Shown in pieces: positions 34,397 through 42,014 of a DNA stretch of 64,000 nucleotides. A program made the translations under genes and the position numbers. Source of the stretch: Dyadobacter luticola (GTDB lineage Bacteria > Bacteroidota > Bacteroidia > Cytophagales > Spirosomataceae); contig NZ_VCEJ01000005.1 in NCBI RefSeq assembly GCF_005860805.1, positions 1-64,000 of the forward strand, in the 5' to 3' direction. Each line of letters starts with the position of its first letter. Positions within the stretch are counted from its first letter, which is position 1. A model generated the notes under the pieces. It did no database searches. It was not told where the DNA came from and saw only the letters and a list, made by a program, of their open reading frames with translations.

Positions 34397-36241
34397 TCAG
34401 AATAGGATGGAATATTTCACTTCGCCGCTTCCTACCGGAACCAGCAATTCCTGCGCACCGTCCGCATTTCTGATCTCGGGTTTAATACTTTTATCAGCGA
34501 GCTGGATGTAGTACGATTTATTGTTCACCGCATACAAGCCATCCGAAATTTTCTCGATCGTAGCACCGTCAGCCAGTCTTGCCATCAAACCTTTTGCAGG
34601 CTTGTCCACTTTCACAATTCTTTCGAAATACTGGTTATTAACCACTGAAATATAATCCGTTACCGTCGAGCCGAAAGCCTGGTACTGGAATGTCGGTACA
34701 TCCGTGTCATCCAGTACATAACCTTTTGGACGGTAGCTACTGCCGGTCGTGTCTGTTGCCCATTTCGATTTTCCTTCTGCCTTGCCGAGCAACATATCGT
34801 CGCCCAGGAGCGTCACGCTGCCGCGCGGGCGGGAAGATCCGTCGCCGCGATCGTGCCACATTGGAGTCGCATCGAGGAATTCGCCGCGCCATACCTGCAG
34901 AATGTTTCCTTTGTCCAGATCATAGGTATAATGCAGGTTGGTAGGGCTGCCCACCGAAACTGCATGCACCACGCGCGTTCTTTTCGCTTTTTCGTCTTTT
35001 TTGAAATCCATAAAACTGCGAATGATCGTATTGGTACCCGCATTGATCAGGATCGGATCGGTATTGCCGGAAGCCATCGCCGAGCTTTTGGAATGATAAG
35101 CTACCTCGCGGAAACCAGGGCCACTTACCCAAAGACCGAGCACCGGACGCATCCAGCCGTCTCTTTTATTGTTAAAAATTTCAACGGTATGGTCGCCTGC
35201 TTTCAGGTTCACTTTTCCCTCACGGATATCGGTATTGCTTTTCCACTGCGCATCGATCACGAATTTTCCGTCCACTTTCAGGTAAGAATTGCCTGATGCC
35301 TGCAATTTGAAATTATAATCACCGGCAGTAGGCGCATTGTAGCGGCCGGTATATACATAGGAGTAGTTATTGTTTTCTTTCAAAACTTCCCAGCTCAAAC
35401 TTTCCGCTTTGCCGGTTTCAGCGGGCGTCAGCTTCGAGAGGTCTTCGGTTTCGGACAAACCACCGTAGTACGTTTTGTAGTTCAGCTCGGATAATGTACC
35501 TGGCTTCTGGTCGAAGTTGTTGATCATGATGTTCTTAATCGCCAGCGAACCGTGGTCACCCTGGATACGGATCGGGCCCATTGCTACATCTTCCGAAAGT
35601 GCGCCGCGGGTGGGGCCGCTTACTTCCACGTTTTCATGAATGGTAACCCCATTCAAAACGATTGACAGAAAAACGGCATTAGAGATTTTCTTTCCATTTG
35701 CGTCGAAGCGGGGAGCCTGGTAAGAGATCTTGATATTTTGCCATAAACCTGGCGCTTTGGCTACATTATAACGTGGCGCATAACCTTCGTAACCTTTTTC
35801 ACCTTCCGGCTTGGCATCATTCCAGCGTTCGTAGATACCGCCGTTATCATTGTACTTAGCCGTTTTTTTACCCCATGAATCAAATAGCTGTACTTCGTAG
35901 TTTCCTTGCAGATAGATTCCCGAGTTAGAACCTTTTGTCAGCATAAAATCCAGCTCAATGTCCAGATCGCCATGTTTGAATTTGGAGATCAGCTCGTAGT
36001 CGTTACCATATTTTCCTTTTTCATGGATACACGCCAGGACGCCTTTTCCCGGCGTGGTGATCAATGCGTTTTCTTTGGAAATGTCGGCTGTTGCATTACC
36101 TACAATTTTCCAGTTGTCGGATTTGGTAGTGAATGCACTGAGGTCGTTAAGAGGGATCGGCTGCTGGGCGTAGACGGACTGCACAAAAACAGCTGCCATG
36201 CCACAAGCGAGTTGCAACAAAGTACTCTTGATTTTAAACAT
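34397..36241 (-). CDS. Exported DUF1080 (3-keto-disaccharide hydrolase) protein with PA14-like middle domain
   Basis: This 614-residue protein has a signal peptide (LACGMAAVFVQSVYAQ) and an N-terminal DUF1080 beta-sandwich with GSNSGIYLQGNYEVQLFDSW and GGIYERW at about residues 100-140, the pattern of 3-keto-disaccharide hydrolases and other jelly-roll carbohydrate-active proteins. A middle region (YVYTGRYNAPTAGDYNF, KVDGKFVIDAQW) looks like a PA14-type carbohydrate-binding domain. The last third is unassigned. The 27-bp gap to the downstream dehydrogenase gene suggests one operon for oxidised sugars; the chemistry is inferred. Confidence 0.78.
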   Translation of the reverse strand: MFKIKSTLLQLACGMAAVFVQSVYAQQPIPLNDLSAFTTKSDNWKIVGNATADISKENALITTPGKGVLACIHEKGKYGNDYELISKFKHGDLDIELDFMLTKGSNSGIYLQGNYEVQLFDSWGKKTAKYNDNGGIYERWNDAKPEGEKGYEGYAPRYNVAKAPGLWQNIKISYQAPRFDANGKKISNAVFLSIVLNGVTIHENVEVSGPTRGALSEDVAMGPIRIQGDHGSLAIKNIMINNFDQKPGTLSELNYKTYYGGLSETEDLSKLTPAETGKAESLSWEVLKENNNYSYVYTGRYNAPTAGDYNFKLQASGNSYLKVDGKFVIDAQWKSNTDIREGKVNLKAGDHTVEIFNNKRDGWMRPVLGLWVSGPGFREVAYHSKSSAMASGNTDPILINAGTNTIIRSFMDFKKDEKAKRTRVVHAVSVGSPTNLHYTYDLDKGNILQVWRGEFLDATPMWHDRGDGSSRPRGSVTLLGDDMLLGKAEGKSKWATDTTGSSYRPKGYVLDDTDVPTFQYQAFGSTVTDYISVVNNQYFERIVKVDKPAKGLMARLADGATIEKISDGLYAVNNKSYYIQLADKSIKPEIRNADGAQELLVPVGSGEVKYSILF

Positions 36242-36432
36242 ACTTGGATTAAGCTTGGTCGGTTTTACATGTTTGCCGGCGCCGGTAGAACCCTATGACG
36301 AGGCGGCGCAAATTACGTGATAAGAATCCACATTTAATTAGATGAGAAACGCATTTGTTAATGCTTTTTAATTAATGTTGCGTTTTGATATTATTTCAAT
36401 GGTTTATTAGACTAAACAGTAACTTTTCAAAA

Positions 36433-37197
36433 ATGAAAAAATTAATGCTTACCGCGTTCGGCCTGGCGTCTGCCTTTGGAGCTTATGCGCAATTGCAACC
36501 TGCCAAGCAAACCCCTGAATCGAGCGAATTATGGAGCCCGGTTCCCCGCGTCGTAACGCCAGGTAAAATCACTCCTGCCCTTTCAGGCTTCACAGCTCCT
36601 TCCGATGCGATCGTTTTATTCGACGGTAAAAACCTGGATGCGTGGGTTTCCGGAAAAGACGGAAAATCGGCCGCGCCCTGGACAGTTGCGGACAATGCGA
36701 TTACCGTAGCACCGAAATCGGGAGACATTCAAACGAAACAAAACTTTGAAAATTACCAGCTGCACATTGAATTTCGTACGCCAGCCAAAGTAGAAGGCAG
36801 TAGCCAGGGACGTGGAAACAGCGGTATTTTTATGCAGGGATTGTATGAGTTGCAGGTACTCGACAGCTATAATAATCTGACTTATTCCAACGGACAGGCA
36901 GCTTCGATCTACAAACAAACGATGCCGCTGGTGAATGCTTCGGTAGGACCAGGCGAGTGGCAGGTTTATGACGTGGTGTACACGGCGCCGCATTTCAACA
37001 AAGACGGACAAATGCTGATCCCGCCATACATTACCGTGATCCACAATGGTGTTTTGGTTCAAAACCACACCATGATCCAGGGAACTACGCCTTATGTTGG
37101 TCAGCCGATGATCCAGCCACACGGACCGGGCCCGATCAAATTGCAGGACCACAACAACACGACCAGTTTCAGAAACATCTGGATCCGCGAGTTGTAA
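36433..37197 (+). CDS. Exported DUF1080 (3-keto-disaccharide hydrolase) protein
   Basis: This 254-residue protein is a single DUF1080 domain after a signal peptide ([20 protein letters not shown]). The family segments are [19 protein letters not shown] near residue 60, [20 protein letters not shown] near 140, and [14 protein letters not shown]. It is divergent from, and homologous to, the DUF1080 domain of the 34397 gene across a 190-bp promoter region. I start it at the ATG at 36433 because that gives a normal signal peptide; the longer frame from 36385 does not. Confidence 0.84.
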
Positions 37198-37975: not shown

Positions 37976-38800
37976 ATGCCAGAAAATGACCAATTAACTC
38001 CCGAGGAATCAAACAAACCATTGGAGCAAAAAACGGAAGAACTGAAAGCCACCACCGCGGAAGCAAAAGACGAAGTAGTGGAAGAAGTGCTCGAAATCAA
38101 GGATGAGGCGAAGGAGACAGCAGAAGAAAAATGGGAAACAGCCGATGCAGTGGCCGAGGAAAAACTGGAAGAGGCGGGAGAAACCGCCGATGGTATCAAA
38201 ACCGAAGCCTACGAAACTTTGGACGACCTGAAAGCCCAGGCAGAGGAAAAAGCAGACGAAACAAAAGACGAAGCCCTTGAAATAGAGGCCAATATCTCCG
38301 AAAAAGTGGATGAGCTGGAAGTGGAAGCTGAGGAAAAAGTAGAAGATGTGAAAGCAGCCGCGGAAGATAAGGCAGCAGAAGCAAAGGAAATCGTGGCCAA
38401 CATTAAAGAGGAAGCAGCTGCCAAAGCAGCGGATGTGCAGGAAGTAGTTACCGACAAAGCGGAGGAAGCGAAGGAAGTTGTTACGGACAAAGCAGAGGAA
38501 GCGAAAGAATCTTTTTCTGACAAATTTGAGGACATGAATGAAACGGCTGCCGACAAGTTTGAAGACTTGAAAGTGGCGGCTGCGGATAAATTTGAGGATC
38601 TGAAAGAGGACGCAACGGAAGCATTTGAAGAGGCAAAAGTGATCGCCGCGGAAAAAATGGAGGAAGCCAAAATCAAAGCTGCGGAACTGAAAGCGAAAGC
38701 TGCGGAGGAATTTGAAGAAGCGAAAGTAAAAGCATCTGAAAAAATTGTCGAGACCCAAACCAAGGCGAAAGGCTTCTGGGCGCGGTTATTCGGGAAGTAA
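37976..38800 (+). CDS. Ala/Glu/Lys-rich coiled-coil protein (LEA/apolipoprotein-like)
   Basis: This 274-residue protein is almost entirely charged helix made of 11-residue-like repeats such as DKAEEAKEVVT and DKFEDLKVAAA, with no aromatic core until the C-terminal KGFWARLFGK. It resembles late-embryogenesis-abundant, apolipoprotein-like and YtxH-type proteins that form amphipathic helices. The C-terminal aromatic-basic tip could touch membranes. Function is unknown; desiccation or envelope roles are guesses. The strong composition bias also creates long antisense frames, which are not genes. A 33-bp tandem DNA repeat lies at 38444-38509. Confidence 0.7.
   Translation: MPENDQLTPEESNKPLEQKTEELKATTAEAKDEVVEEVLEIKDEAKETAEEKWETADAVAEEKLEEAGETADGIKTEAYETLDDLKAQAEEKADETKDEALEIEANISEKVDELEVEAEEKVEDVKAAAEDKAAEAKEIVANIKEEAAAKAADVQEVVTDKAEEAKEVVTDKAEEAKESFSDKFEDMNETAADKFEDLKVAAADKFEDLKEDATEAFEEAKVIAAEKMEEAKIKAAELKAKAAEEFEEAKVKASEKIVETQTKAKGFWARLFGK
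38444..38509 (+). repeat. 33-bp tandem repeat within the LEA-like gene
   Basis: Two adjacent 33-bp units, each encoding VVTDKAEEAKE, differ at a few third-codon positions. They show that the repetitive protein grew by in-frame 11-codon duplication. Neighbouring 11-residue units are more diverged. Confidence 0.75.
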
Positions 38801-38819: not shown

Positions 38820-38850
38820 AATGCCCGGTTTCGTTATGGAGCCGGGCATT
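38820..38850 (+). terminator. Probable terminator after the LEA-like gene
   Basis: AATGCCCGG (38820-38828) and CCGGGCATT (38842-38850) form a perfect 9-bp stem with a 13-base loop, but only a weak T-rich tail follows. It separates the LEA-like gene from the small Cys peptide gene. Confidence 0.6.
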
Positions 38851-38953
38851 GTTGGTTCTTGGAAGGATTAAAAAAAATAGCATTTGGTTACAACTAAAAA
38901 GACCTGCTTTTTATCCTGACAAAGTATTTCATTTCATCCTTAACATTCCGTTC

Positions 38954-39112
38954 ATGAAAATCTCTAAATCCGTGCTGCAAAGCGTTGCTGTTGCCGTGGC
39001 GCTTACGACACTGGTCTCTACGACAGCCTGTGTCGACAACATTATCAAGCCAAACTCAGAGAAGAAATTGAGGCAAAAAGTGGATCCATGCCCTGGCTGT
39101 GGAATGGGTTAA
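38954..39112 (+). CDS. Probable RiPP precursor peptide, MNIO (DUF692) substrate
   Basis: This 52-residue peptide has a hydrophobic Sec-like leader (VLQSVAVAVALTTLVSTTA) followed by Cys26, then a charged spacer, and ends KVDPCPGCGMG with Cys46 and Cys49. The end CPGCGMG looks like the modified core of MNIO-class RiPPs, such as chryseobasin and bufferins, in which DUF692 enzymes act on Cys or neighbouring residues. It lies 21 bp before the DUF692 gene at 39134. I chose the ATG at 38954 because it gives a clean signal peptide; the longer frame from 38849 does not. The weak lipobox (TTAC) leaves lipidation open. Confidence 0.7.
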   Translation: MKISKSVLQSVAVAVALTTLVSTTACVDNIIKPNSEKKLRQKVDPCPGCGMG

Positions 39113-39133
39113 TGTGTTTATTCCGAGCAGGAT

Positions 39134-40264
39134 ATGTCAGAAATTTACGCTTCCGTAGCCTGCAACCTGGACATTCCGATTTTGCAGGCGTCCCTTCCGC
39201 TTTTTGAGGAGGGCAAAATAGAGGGCATTGAATGGTCATTCGATGCCCTTTTTAAATGGCAGGAAATTCCGGGCTGGTTTACCGACCTGGTCCATGAATT
39301 CAGCGAAAACAACCGGCTGGTGGGTCACGGGGTGTATTTCTCACTTTTTTCGGGGAAATGGTCGCCCGAGCAGCAGCAGTGGCTGGAAAAGCTGCGGAAG
39401 TTATCTGGGGATTTTCATTTTGACCATGTATCGGAACACTTTGGGTTCCTGACCGGTGACGATTTCCACAAAGGCGCGCCCATCGGCATTCCGTTTACCA
39501 ATTCCACATTAACTATCGGCCGCGACCGGCTTCGCAGAATCCAGGACGCATGTCAATGTCCGGTCGGGCTGGAAAACCTGGCATTTTCATATTCTCTGGA
39601 AGAGGTGAAAAGACATGGAGAATTTCTGGATGCGCTGGTGGAGGAAGTGAATGGTTTTATTATTCTCGACCTGCATAACCTTTATTGTCAGAGCCATAAT
39701 TTCAACATTCCTTTTGACCAAATGATGCGGCTCTACCCGCTGGACAGGGTGCGGGAAATTCATATCTCAGGCGGAAGCTGGGACGATCAGTTGTCAGGTT
39801 TTGAGAAAATAGTGAGGCGTGATACGCATGATGAATCGGTGCCTGAGGAAGTTTTTGAATATCTTAAACTGGCGATTCCACAATGCAAAAACCTTAAATA
39901 TGTAGTTTTAGAGCAGTTGGGCGCGGCTTTGGAAACTTCCGACCAGCAGGAAACATTCAGAAATGACTTCCTGAAAATGCAGGCGATCATTCAGCATCCC
40001 GGCACAAAATCCGCTCAATCAGTTTCTGATTTTGTGACAAAGTATTTCTCCCCACTCAGCCCAATTCCACCGGAAGACCCGCATTTGTACCGGCAGCAAA
40101 AACAACTTTCGGACATTCTTGAAAATGCTGCAGATAGCTTTGAGGCTTTCAAAATGCTCCAAAATTCAACCTTGGCCAACTCGGACTGGCGTGTCGAAAA
40201 CTGGGAACCGGTCATGCTTGAAACAGCAATCGCCATTGCGCGGAAATGGAAAAACGGTTTTTAA
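39134..40264 (+). CDS. DUF692 / MNIO family iron oxidase with C-terminal extension
   Basis: This 376-residue protein belongs to the multinuclear non-heme iron-dependent oxidase family (DUF692), which includes MbnB, TglH and ChrH. The barrel motifs carry likely metal ligands: VGHG (His65), FDHVSEHF (His98), GLENLAF (Glu147), ILDLHNLYCQSHN (Asp179, His181, His188), REIHISGG (His210), RDTHDE (Asp230, His232) and VVLEQLG (Glu260). About 85 residues follow the barrel, ending in DWRVENWEPVMLETAIA, which may replace the separate partner protein of other systems. The precursor-like peptide at 38954 is directly upstream. RBS-like AGGA precedes the ATG. Confidence 0.78.
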   Translation: MSEIYASVACNLDIPILQASLPLFEEGKIEGIEWSFDALFKWQEIPGWFTDLVHEFSENNRLVGHGVYFSLFSGKWSPEQQQWLEKLRKLSGDFHFDHVSEHFGFLTGDDFHKGAPIGIPFTNSTLTIGRDRLRRIQDACQCPVGLENLAFSYSLEEVKRHGEFLDALVEEVNGFIILDLHNLYCQSHNFNIPFDQMMRLYPLDRVREIHISGGSWDDQLSGFEKIVRRDTHDESVPEEVFEYLKLAIPQCKNLKYVVLEQLGAALETSDQQETFRNDFLKMQAIIQHPGTKSAQSVSDFVTKYFSPLSPIPPEDPHLYRQQKQLSDILENAADSFEAFKMLQNSTLANSDWRVENWEPVMLETAIAIARKWKNGF

Positions 40265-40367: not shown

Positions 40368-42014
40368 ATGTCACAATCTAATTTTTCGATTCCTTACAAA
40401 CATCCATTCACTCCGGATAACCAATACAAGAAATCAGTTGCCTACTTTTCCATGGAATTCGCCGTCGACCAGGCGTTGAAAATCTATTCCGGCGGCCTCG
40501 GCTTCCTCGCCGGCTCGCACATGCGGAGCGTATATGCGCTCAACCAAAACCTTATCGGGATTGGTATGCTCTGGAAATACGGATATTACGATCAGAGCCG
40601 GAAACGAGACGGAAGTATGGAGCCCGAGTTCCGTGAAAAAATGTATTCTTTCTTAACGGATACAGGTATACGCTTCCAGGTTCCGATCATGGGACAGGAC
40701 GTTTGGATTGCGGCTTACTACCTGGCGCCTAATGTCTTCCAGTCTGCGCCACTGTTTTTGCTGACCACCGATACCGATGGAAATGACGAAGAAACGCGTG
40801 CGATTTCCTATTCACTCTACGACGCGGATGTATCTTATAAAGTGGCGCAATGTATGGTGCTGGGCATCGGCGGCGCACGACTTTTGGAAGAATTGAAATA
40901 TGAGCCCGAAGTGTATCATTTCAATGAAGCGCACGCAGTATCGGCGGTTTTCCAGCTTTATAAAAAGTACAAGACGGTAGATGAGGTCAAAAAGCGTGTG
41001 GTTTTCACAACGCATACACCGGAGGAAGCTGGAAATGAAAAACATGAAATTCATTTTCTGGAAAATCTGGGCTTTTTCTCGGGACTAAATCTTGAAACAG
41101 TACGGAAGATCAGCGGGAATCAGGGCAACATTTTCAATCACTCGCTGGCGGCGCTAAGCCTGAGCCGTAATGCGAATGCGGTTTCCAAATTGCACGGCGA
41201 AGTATCGCGGGATATGTGGAAGGCGCACCCAAAGATTGCGCCGATCGGGCATATCACCAATGCACAGAACAATACCTACTGGGTCGACAAGCAGCTCGAA
41301 GAAGCGCGTATCAACGCAGATCATGCCAAAATTGCCGCCAGGAAAAAAGAACTGAAAGCAATTCTGTTCAAAACCGTGGCCGATCAATGCGGTAAAATCT
41401 TCGATCCGAACGTATTGACGATTGTGTGGGCGCGGCGGTTTGCGGCTTACAAAAGGCCGGATATGCTGGTTTGGGATATGGAAAGGTTCCGCAAAATGAT
41501 GGATAACAAGGACCAGCCTGTGCAGGTGATCTGGGCCGGTAAGCCTTACCCAAAAGACGAAGGCGCGATCAACACATTCAACCATTTATTCTACCTGAGC
41601 CACCTGTTTCCCAATATGGCGGTACTGACCGGCTACGAACTGGGACTTTCCAAGTTACTGAAAGATGGTTCGGATATCTGGCTCAACACCCCGGTTGTAA
41701 CCCGTGAAGCCTCCGGCACCAGCGGGATGACGGCCGCGATGAATGCTTCTCTCAACTTGTCAACTTACGACGGCTGGATTTGCGAATTTGCCAAAGACGA
41801 CGAAAACTCCTTCATTTTGCCAGTTGCGAAAAGTGGCGACATCAATAAGGAAGATTGCGACAACCTGAATGATAAGCTGGAAAAATCCGTAATCCCGACT
41901 TACTACGCCGACCAGGAGAAATGGCAAAGCATGGTACTGGCCAGCATGAACGACGTCAATGTAGACTTCAACTCCGACCGTATGGCGCGGGAGTATTATG
42001 AAAAATTGTATTAA
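40368..42014 (+). CDS. GT35 alpha-glucan phosphorylase-like protein lacking the PLP lysine
   Basis: This 548-residue protein is much shorter than classical glycogen phosphorylase (about 800-850) and follows the short bacterial alpha-glucan phosphorylase pattern: YFSMEFAVDQALKIYSGGLG, then VYHFNEAHA, then ARRFAAYKRPD. At the cofactor site, where active members have EASGTSGMKAA with the PLP-binding lysine, the sequence reads EASGTSGMTAAMN, so Thr455 stands in for Lys. If so, it cannot form the usual Schiff base and may not be a phosphorylase. It could be a glycosyltransferase or regulatory paralogue. It starts 103 bp after the MNIO gene. Confidence 0.82.
   Translation: MSQSNFSIPYKHPFTPDNQYKKSVAYFSMEFAVDQALKIYSGGLGFLAGSHMRSVYALNQNLIGIGMLWKYGYYDQSRKRDGSMEPEFREKMYSFLTDTGIRFQVPIMGQDVWIAAYYLAPNVFQSAPLFLLTTDTDGNDEETRAISYSLYDADVSYKVAQCMVLGIGGARLLEELKYEPEVYHFNEAHAVSAVFQLYKKYKTVDEVKKRVVFTTHTPEEAGNEKHEIHFLENLGFFSGLNLETVRKISGNQGNIFNHSLAALSLSRNANAVSKLHGEVSRDMWKAHPKIAPIGHITNAQNNTYWVDKQLEEARINADHAKIAARKKELKAILFKTVADQCGKIFDPNVLTIVWARRFAAYKRPDMLVWDMERFRKMMDNKDQPVQVIWAGKPYPKDEGAINTFNHLFYLSHLFPNMAVLTGYELGLSKLLKDGSDIWLNTPVVTREASGTSGMTAAMNASLNLSTYDGWICEFAKDDENSFILPVAKSGDINKEDCDNLNDKLEKSVIPTYYADQEKWQSMVLASMNDVNVDFNSDRMAREYYEKLY

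Follow-up and report, generated by a model that had tools for sequence, protein, structure and literature searches.

A dybA/dybH-type MNIO RiPP cassette in Dyadobacter luticola: conservation of the lipoprotein signal peptide and a predicted ECF-sigma promoter

In a window of 64,000 nt from Dyadobacter luticola (contig NZ_VCEJ01000005.1, the whole stretch of DNA that was analysed), a short precursor peptide gene is followed by the gene of an MNIO (DUF692) enzyme. Judged from sequence, the two are orthologous to Dyadobacter crusticola dybA/dybH, and the locus itself represents an already-known peptide type; we have high confidence in its assignment, in family and in chemistry, to the Dyadobacter dybA/dybH cassette. 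Two features appear to be new, given the literature searched: a constraint on the signal peptide of the precursor, and a promoter element and regulon that dybA would share with other lipoprotein genes. Neither was found in that literature, nor by a word search of the main text of the paper describing DybA/DybH and related DAG-RiPPs (PMC12636315).

Precursor, enzyme and predicted product

The precursor gene (38954..39112, + strand) encodes a peptide of 52 residues, MKISKSVLQSVAVAVALTTLVSTTACVDNIIKPNSEKKLRQKVDPCPGCGMG, with Cys46 and Cys49 near its C-terminus, and 21 bp separate its stop codon from the enzyme gene (39134..40264, + strand), an arrangement described in the earlier note and confirmed by the ORF coordinates. 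The peptide passed the NCBIfam model NF050125 ('chryseobasin-related MNIO class RiPP peptide') with 49.6 bits (cut-off 40) and the enzyme matched Pfam MbnB_TglH_ChrH with E=3.3e-32, which bears out the reading of the two as an MNIO RiPP pair. The modification motif CPGCGMG with the stop codon (39089..39112, + strand) has the CPxCGxG form at the precursor end that characterises DybA/DybH-type DAG-RiPPs; in the published work on DybA, changes made by DybH were observed only within the C-terminal motif (PMC12636315). Residues 1-25 (38954..39028, + strand) form a predicted signal peptide that belongs to a conserved MK[LI]SK..LxA[IV] set, and are followed by a third cysteine, Cys26 (codon 39029..39031, + strand), which stands in a lipobox-like ...STTAC (TTAC being residues 23-26) and is the predicted site of lipidation. 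The position is conserved in relatives, a cysteine within residues 16-33 being present in 87 of 88 related precursors (from the loci of the best 80 of 276 relatives), and lipidation has been reported for DybA (PMC12636315). The leader had earlier been described as Sec-type and Cys26 had been overlooked; by its sequence the leader is of the lipoprotein (signal peptidase II) type and not a plain Sec signal. In the genome of D. luticola, a pattern search for a second CPxCGxG-stop ORF, a possible trans-acting substrate, found none; one other match to the CPxCGxG pattern was rejected, because it ends in TGG, not in a stop.

In the 6.4-Mb genome, the enzyme (376 aa) is the sole match to Pfam MbnB_TglH_ChrH (E <= 0.001). 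It reached 390 bits against NF050165 (MNIO_ChrH, the ChrH equivalog), below the cut-off of 600 bits, and is therefore not ChrH itself; the scores against other maturase equivalogs also stayed below their cut-offs (BufB 91 of 310 bits, HvfB 88 of 360, MbnB 24 of 325). An AlphaFold2 model (mean pLDDT 86) predicts a TIM barrel and then an additional C-terminal helical bundle (helices 316-331, 335-343 and 359-371), with a pLDDT of 93-95 over residues 311-350 and 74-87 beyond, and the best PDB matches of the model in Foldseek were TglH and MbnB. Nine residues that are the likely iron ligands (H65, H102, E147, D179, N182, H210, D230, H232 and E260) are invariant across 21 homologues, in keeping with the full set of likely metal ligands noted previously, and, in an alignment read by eye, each has an identical counterpart in TglH or 3bww. 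Among them, N182, D230 and H232 probably correspond to N175, D242 and H244 of HvfB, which are described as site-3 ligands (PMC13419390).

The pair resembles DybA/DybH of D. crusticola DSM 16708 (PMC12636315) in genus, gene order, the lipobox cysteine and the C-terminal CPxCGMG, as well as in having a single enzyme with a C-terminal helical bundle and no partner gene, and the same upstream promoter element is present at the D. crusticola locus (L088). The L088 enzyme is 64% identical to that of the window, and the L088 peptide, whose residue numbers fit those published for DybA (Met26/Asp27, Ala46 and the 13-residue LysC fragment), shares 33 of 50 residues with the window peptide. The two systems differ in the motif, CPGCGMG in the window versus CPACGMG in D. 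crusticola, and in the length of the signal peptide, which in the window has three residues more. Because this orthologue from the same genus has already been characterised, the pair is not the new variant family that the earlier note had considered. HymA/HymH of Hymenobacter gelipurpurascens, although from another genus and with a precursor ending in GLG, has a Gly inside the ring (CPGCG) and a -4 Da product, so that CPGCG is an accepted substrate type (PMC12636315). Chryseobasin (ChrA/ChrH/ChrI; PMC10214503) shares the enzyme subfamily and the C-terminal motif, whereas ChrA carries a signal peptidase I signal, its operon is larger and its product is S-methylated (+10 Da).

DybH alone is reported to take four hydrogens from the C-terminal CPACGMG, giving a macrocycle and a hydantoin (-4 Da); it acts without a partner protein, DybA bears a lipoprotein signal, and a lipidated, modified DybA peptide was obtained from E. 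coli (PMC12636315). From this orthologue we infer the chemistry and the lipidation of the window peptide. The iron enzyme, free of a partner, would carry out a four-electron oxidation of CPGCGMG (-4.03 Da) in the cytoplasm, closing a macrocycle between Cys46 and Cys49 as well as a hydantoin ring; the calculated [M+H]+ of the LysC fragment VDPCPGCGMG would thereby fall from 935.34 to 931.31. The lipoprotein signal would then direct export of the modified peptide, which would be lipidated and cleaved at Cys26, the end product being a membrane-anchored lipopeptide of 27 residues that carries the ring at its C-terminus. The earlier argument that modification must precede export is, in our judgement, right. 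A peptide that chelates copper or another metal in the manner of bufferins or methanobactins, as had also been suggested for this locus, would be made by an enzyme of the same superfamily, bufferins being known to chelate copper, and oxazolins, one of which is reported to be lipidated, have been termed copper-binding. We nevertheless regard a chelator as very improbable, since the DybA product is described as lacking an absorbance feature, unlike methanobactins or bufferins (PMC12636315), the window enzyme stays below the BufB and MbnB cut-offs by the margins given above, and a Pfam scan of the 12 neighbouring proteins in the window found neither a copper protein nor a copper or partner domain.

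Conservation of the signal peptide

Between genera, the signal peptide of DybA has an identity of 0.55 (198 pairs), compared with 0.34 for BamD (178 pairs), 0.34 for GldB (178 pairs) and 0.33 for GldD (99 pairs; at least one signal choice, in G155, looks wrong) in the same genomes. These comprise 21 genomes that we selected from 80 loci (the best 80 of 276 relatives), of which 20 contributed to the BamD and to the GldB control set and 15 to that of GldD, rows without a clear lipobox or a readable frame being excluded. To allow for cassette transfer, pairs were also matched by the identity of the enzyme or the mature protein. At 55-65% identity, the first 12 residues agree at 0.60 in DybA (187 pairs) versus 0.23 in BamD (12), 0.29 in GldB (6) and 0.15 in GldD (9), and in the 65-80% bin at 0.73 (20 pairs) versus 0.50 (9), 0.37 (5) and 0.18 (7), respectively; the matched control pairs are thus few, and the identity of BamD climbs to 0.50 in the upper bin. 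In the spacer that links the lipobox to the C-terminal motif, identity is close to the chance level (0.29 vs 0.25 shuffled).

The conserved positions in the 88 precursors (best 80 of 276 relatives) are K2 (83 precursors), S or P at position 4 (86), L8 (84) and A10 (79), counted from starts that a script had chosen as a Met with K or R within five residues, which favours MK starts. None of the 65 signal-peptide-like ORFs in the neighbourhoods begins with MK[LIV][SP]. Third codon positions within the signal peptide match at 0.35, slightly above the expected 0.26, so that the constraint lies for the most part at the protein level. In another family, nine loci (L230, L231 and L235-L241; L242 yielded no precursor) provide 13 precursors that, as read by eye, have signal peptidase I sites and no lipobox, and all 13 show MK[IL]S at the likely start; a looser MK[IL]S-like start is also found in one of the three precursors of the Taibaiella locus L120. 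As the start motif is kept in lipobox-free precursors, the constraint is seemingly not due to lipidation. Relaxed selection on the N-terminal part has been remarked for these precursors (PMC12636315); for the signal peptide, the Bacteroidota sequences compared here contradict it.

The DybA signal peptide might double as a leader, that is, as a cytoplasmic recognition element which would help DybH to catch the precursor before export, and we consider the chances for and against this to be even. For the related HvfA, modification falls when the Sec signal is missing, and the authors liken this signal to a RiPP leader, as in bufferin (PMC13419390). On the other side, a GFP fusion showed that DybH needs no more than the C-terminal motif in E. 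coli (PMC12636315), and this speaks against the signal peptide being indispensable as a leader.

Predicted promoter and candidate lipoprotein regulon

A hairpin, AATGCCCGG...CCGGGCATT, read from the sequence 3' of the upstream gene (38820..38850, + strand; absent from the hairpin scan, which had a loop limit of 8), is a probable terminator and suggests that dybAH forms its own transcription unit. A predicted ECF-sigma promoter (38887..38915, + strand) consists of GTTACAACTA (-35), N16 and ATC (-10). The ECF-type element TTACAACN-N17-[GA]TC stands at a fixed spacing before dybA in 17 of 17 Dyadobacter loci, one of them with CTC, and the fuller form TTACAAC[CTG]A-N16-[ACG]TC is present in all 17 (window included), 54-105 nt 5' of the start codon, with CTC only in L105. 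When 78 dybA upstreams from several orders were scanned, AACN-N17-GTC (N = C, T or G) was found in 17 (1.1 in single-base shuffles) and its N18 form in 11 (1.5 in shuffles), and the other nine spacings gave 0-2; AACC-N16-18-GTC occurred in none of the 17 Chitinophaga-group loci. Two other promoter types were rejected: a sigma-70-like promoter, with two matches in the scanned stretch, both on the - strand and no more than in shuffles, and the Bacteroidetes TTTG/TAnnTTTG promoter, found in 0 of the 78 upstreams under the strict pattern.

Across 41 genomes of the genus, the element was found at 115 sites compared with 46 for the reversed control pattern, so that part of the 115 are chance. Ninety sites were examined, the remaining 25 including several dybA sites; 40 of the 90 lead within 200 nt to a lipoprotein start on the same strand and one does so in the opposite direction, while 73 of 6000 random positions (1.2%) lead to such a start. 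The 40 include four dybA genes and a doubtful 46-aa ORF (L331), and the lipobox detector overlooks ten lipoproteins that are clear by eye (e.g. L270, L277, L302 and L317). Other sites (L299, L308, L324 and L352) have an ECF sigma gene 3' of them, which is present once in each of the 41 genomes (E <= 1e-50). Its upstream region contains TT[AC]CAACN-N17-GTC in 29 of 29 readable cases, in addition to that of D. luticola itself (one of 30 loci could not be oriented; 0.015 expected per shuffled set). In 25 of the 30 sigma promoters, that of D. luticola included, the -35 has TTCC where dybA has TTAC, a difference of one base.

In D. luticola, the sigma gene (G000:C6:122338-122895, outside the window) carries TTCCAACC-N17-GTC. 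The gene after it encodes a protein of 503 aa with an N-terminal domain, one TM helix, a long low-complexity tether and a weak C-terminal match to an outer-membrane barrel (OMP_b-brl_2, 20.1 bits, cut-off 27), a layout that, read by eye, may correspond to the one described for Dma of the Dma/Das pairs of Bacteroides. In Bacteroides thetaiotaomicron, Dma anti-sigma factors are described as controlling the formation of vesicles (PMC13088901). The putative anti-sigma gene is followed by the gene of a serpin lipoprotein, which carries TTCCAACC-N17-ATC. The stretch with these three genes, ECF sigma, Dma-like anti-sigma and serpin lipoprotein (L383:3338-6689, on G000:C6), is a candidate for a lipoprotein-rich Das/Dma envelope regulon of Dyadobacter.

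We lean towards the reading that dybA is transcribed by the sigma factor of this das/dma-like operon. It could also be read by a different ECF sigma factor with a similar recognition sequence, in which case the element would represent ECF promoters in general. The search for sigma factors gave 35-102 candidates per genome, the reversed control pattern has the 46 sites mentioned above, and similar AACN-N17/18-GTC elements lie 5' of dybA in other families, all of which gives a different sigma factor an appreciable chance. It is less easily reconciled with the occurrence of TT[AC]CAACN-N17-[GA]TC, at the same spacing, before 17 of 17 dybA genes (one with CTC) and 29 of 29 sigma genes, and of the element also at the adjacent serpin lipoprotein gene in D. 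luticola. The conservation of the signal peptide, for its part, might reflect release of the peptide as a signal, or a particular export pathway, and not recognition by the enzyme. The mostly protein-level constraint (the third-base match of 0.35) would agree with this reading, as would its persistence where the precursor, read by eye, has a plain site for signal peptidase I. However, no receptor gene is common to a majority of the loci (the widest neighbour, the SusC-like family, is present at 9 of 21, 7 of them in the genus), and the Sec signal of HvfA, acting like a RiPP leader, is a precedent for recognition by the enzyme (PMC13419390); we therefore think a signalling or export role unlikely.

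With transcription from an ECF-sigma promoter common to the das/dma-like operon and other lipoprotein genes, the product would belong to an outer-membrane or vesicle lipoprotein response and would not be a copper chelator, its destination being predicted. As a tentative model, and one that is rather doubtful in its entirety, the lipidated macrocycle might be an effector of a Das/Dma-type envelope response: the sigma factor would co-express dybAH and surface lipoproteins, the signal peptide would dock the precursor on DybH before Sec, and the lipopeptide would be delivered to the outer membrane or shed on vesicles. If true, this would provide a physiological context for DAG-RiPPs, and the RiPP leader would itself be a lipoprotein signal, serving an enzyme without a partner protein. 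The promoter element and the companion genes make the function of lipidated macrocycles accessible to experiments.

Distribution and genomic site of the cassette

Strong enzyme matches (362-404 bits) were found in 21 of 150 genomes of the family, two more having weak matches only, and a CPxCGxG-stop peptide adjoins the enzyme gene in all 21, so that the pairing is not due to chance. Among the named loci of the best 80 of 276 relatives, a strict DNA pattern identified an adjoining precursor in 77 (the exceptions being L114, L136 and L157), with 88 such peptides in total. The co-occurrence of peptide and DUF692 genes, which the earlier note had proposed as a check, is thus conserved. The CPxCGxG-stop pattern is present in 47 of the 150 family genomes, including all 21 with a strong enzyme match. 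Similar CPxCG[IT]G-stop sites were observed at L051, G082:C10:1081016, G071:C22:432514, G116:C298:232131 and G143:C50:198294; three of these genomes are without a ChrH-type enzyme match, and the sites may mark the C-terminus of some unrelated but conserved protein. At L027 (G145:C6:186849-187664), in a genome of the genus that also has dybAH, there is a second MNIO match, which is weak (58 bits) and contains an in-frame TGA.

No conserved operon beyond dybA and dybH was detected: outside the genus, no genus-spanning third family recurs in more than 2 of 11 loci, and the neighbouring proteins of the window gave no partner domain, in agreement with the earlier statement that there is no separate partner gene. 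TonB-dependent SusC-like receptors, the widest neighbour family in the 20-kb stretches, occur at 9 of 21 loci (7 in the genus, 2 of 11 outside), which agrees with a published remark on frequent SusC/SusD neighbours of these systems (PMC12636315).

For 7 of the 10 cassettes in the genus, the next gene downstream is the same phosphorylase gene; in the window it encodes an alpha-glucan family phosphorylase (40368..42014, + strand) and flanks the system without being part of it. The site is empty, with homologues of the flanking genes adjacent, in 9 of 10 genus genomes without a cassette there, and 3 of these 10 have dybAH elsewhere. The flank spacing at the empty site is 72-200 nt in seven measured genomes, and the insertion boundaries could not be located because the intergenic sequence is too diverged. 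The upstream flanking gene (37976..38800, + strand), also outside the system, encodes a 274-aa acidic protein with apolipoprotein-like repeats (Apolipoprotein and YtxH matches below the Pfam cut-off), whose identity across five genus relatives is 46-55%, compared with 84-86% for the downstream phosphorylase. At 34397-37197 the window has two divergently oriented genes for 3-keto-disaccharide hydrolases, one of which includes a PA14 domain, and these lie beside the cassette also in five genus relatives.

More than one precursor per enzyme was encountered in other groups. In Taibaiella chishuiensis (L120, upstream of 3001), three precursors accompany one enzyme; two have lipobox signals, and the third has a plain signal peptidase I-like signal and a CPPCGRG end and keeps MKV..KLLQAI. 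The clusters L230, L231 and L235-L241 each contain one or two longer, Lys-rich precursors with plain secretion signals, which end in CPPCGMG, CPGCGMG or CPACGRG.
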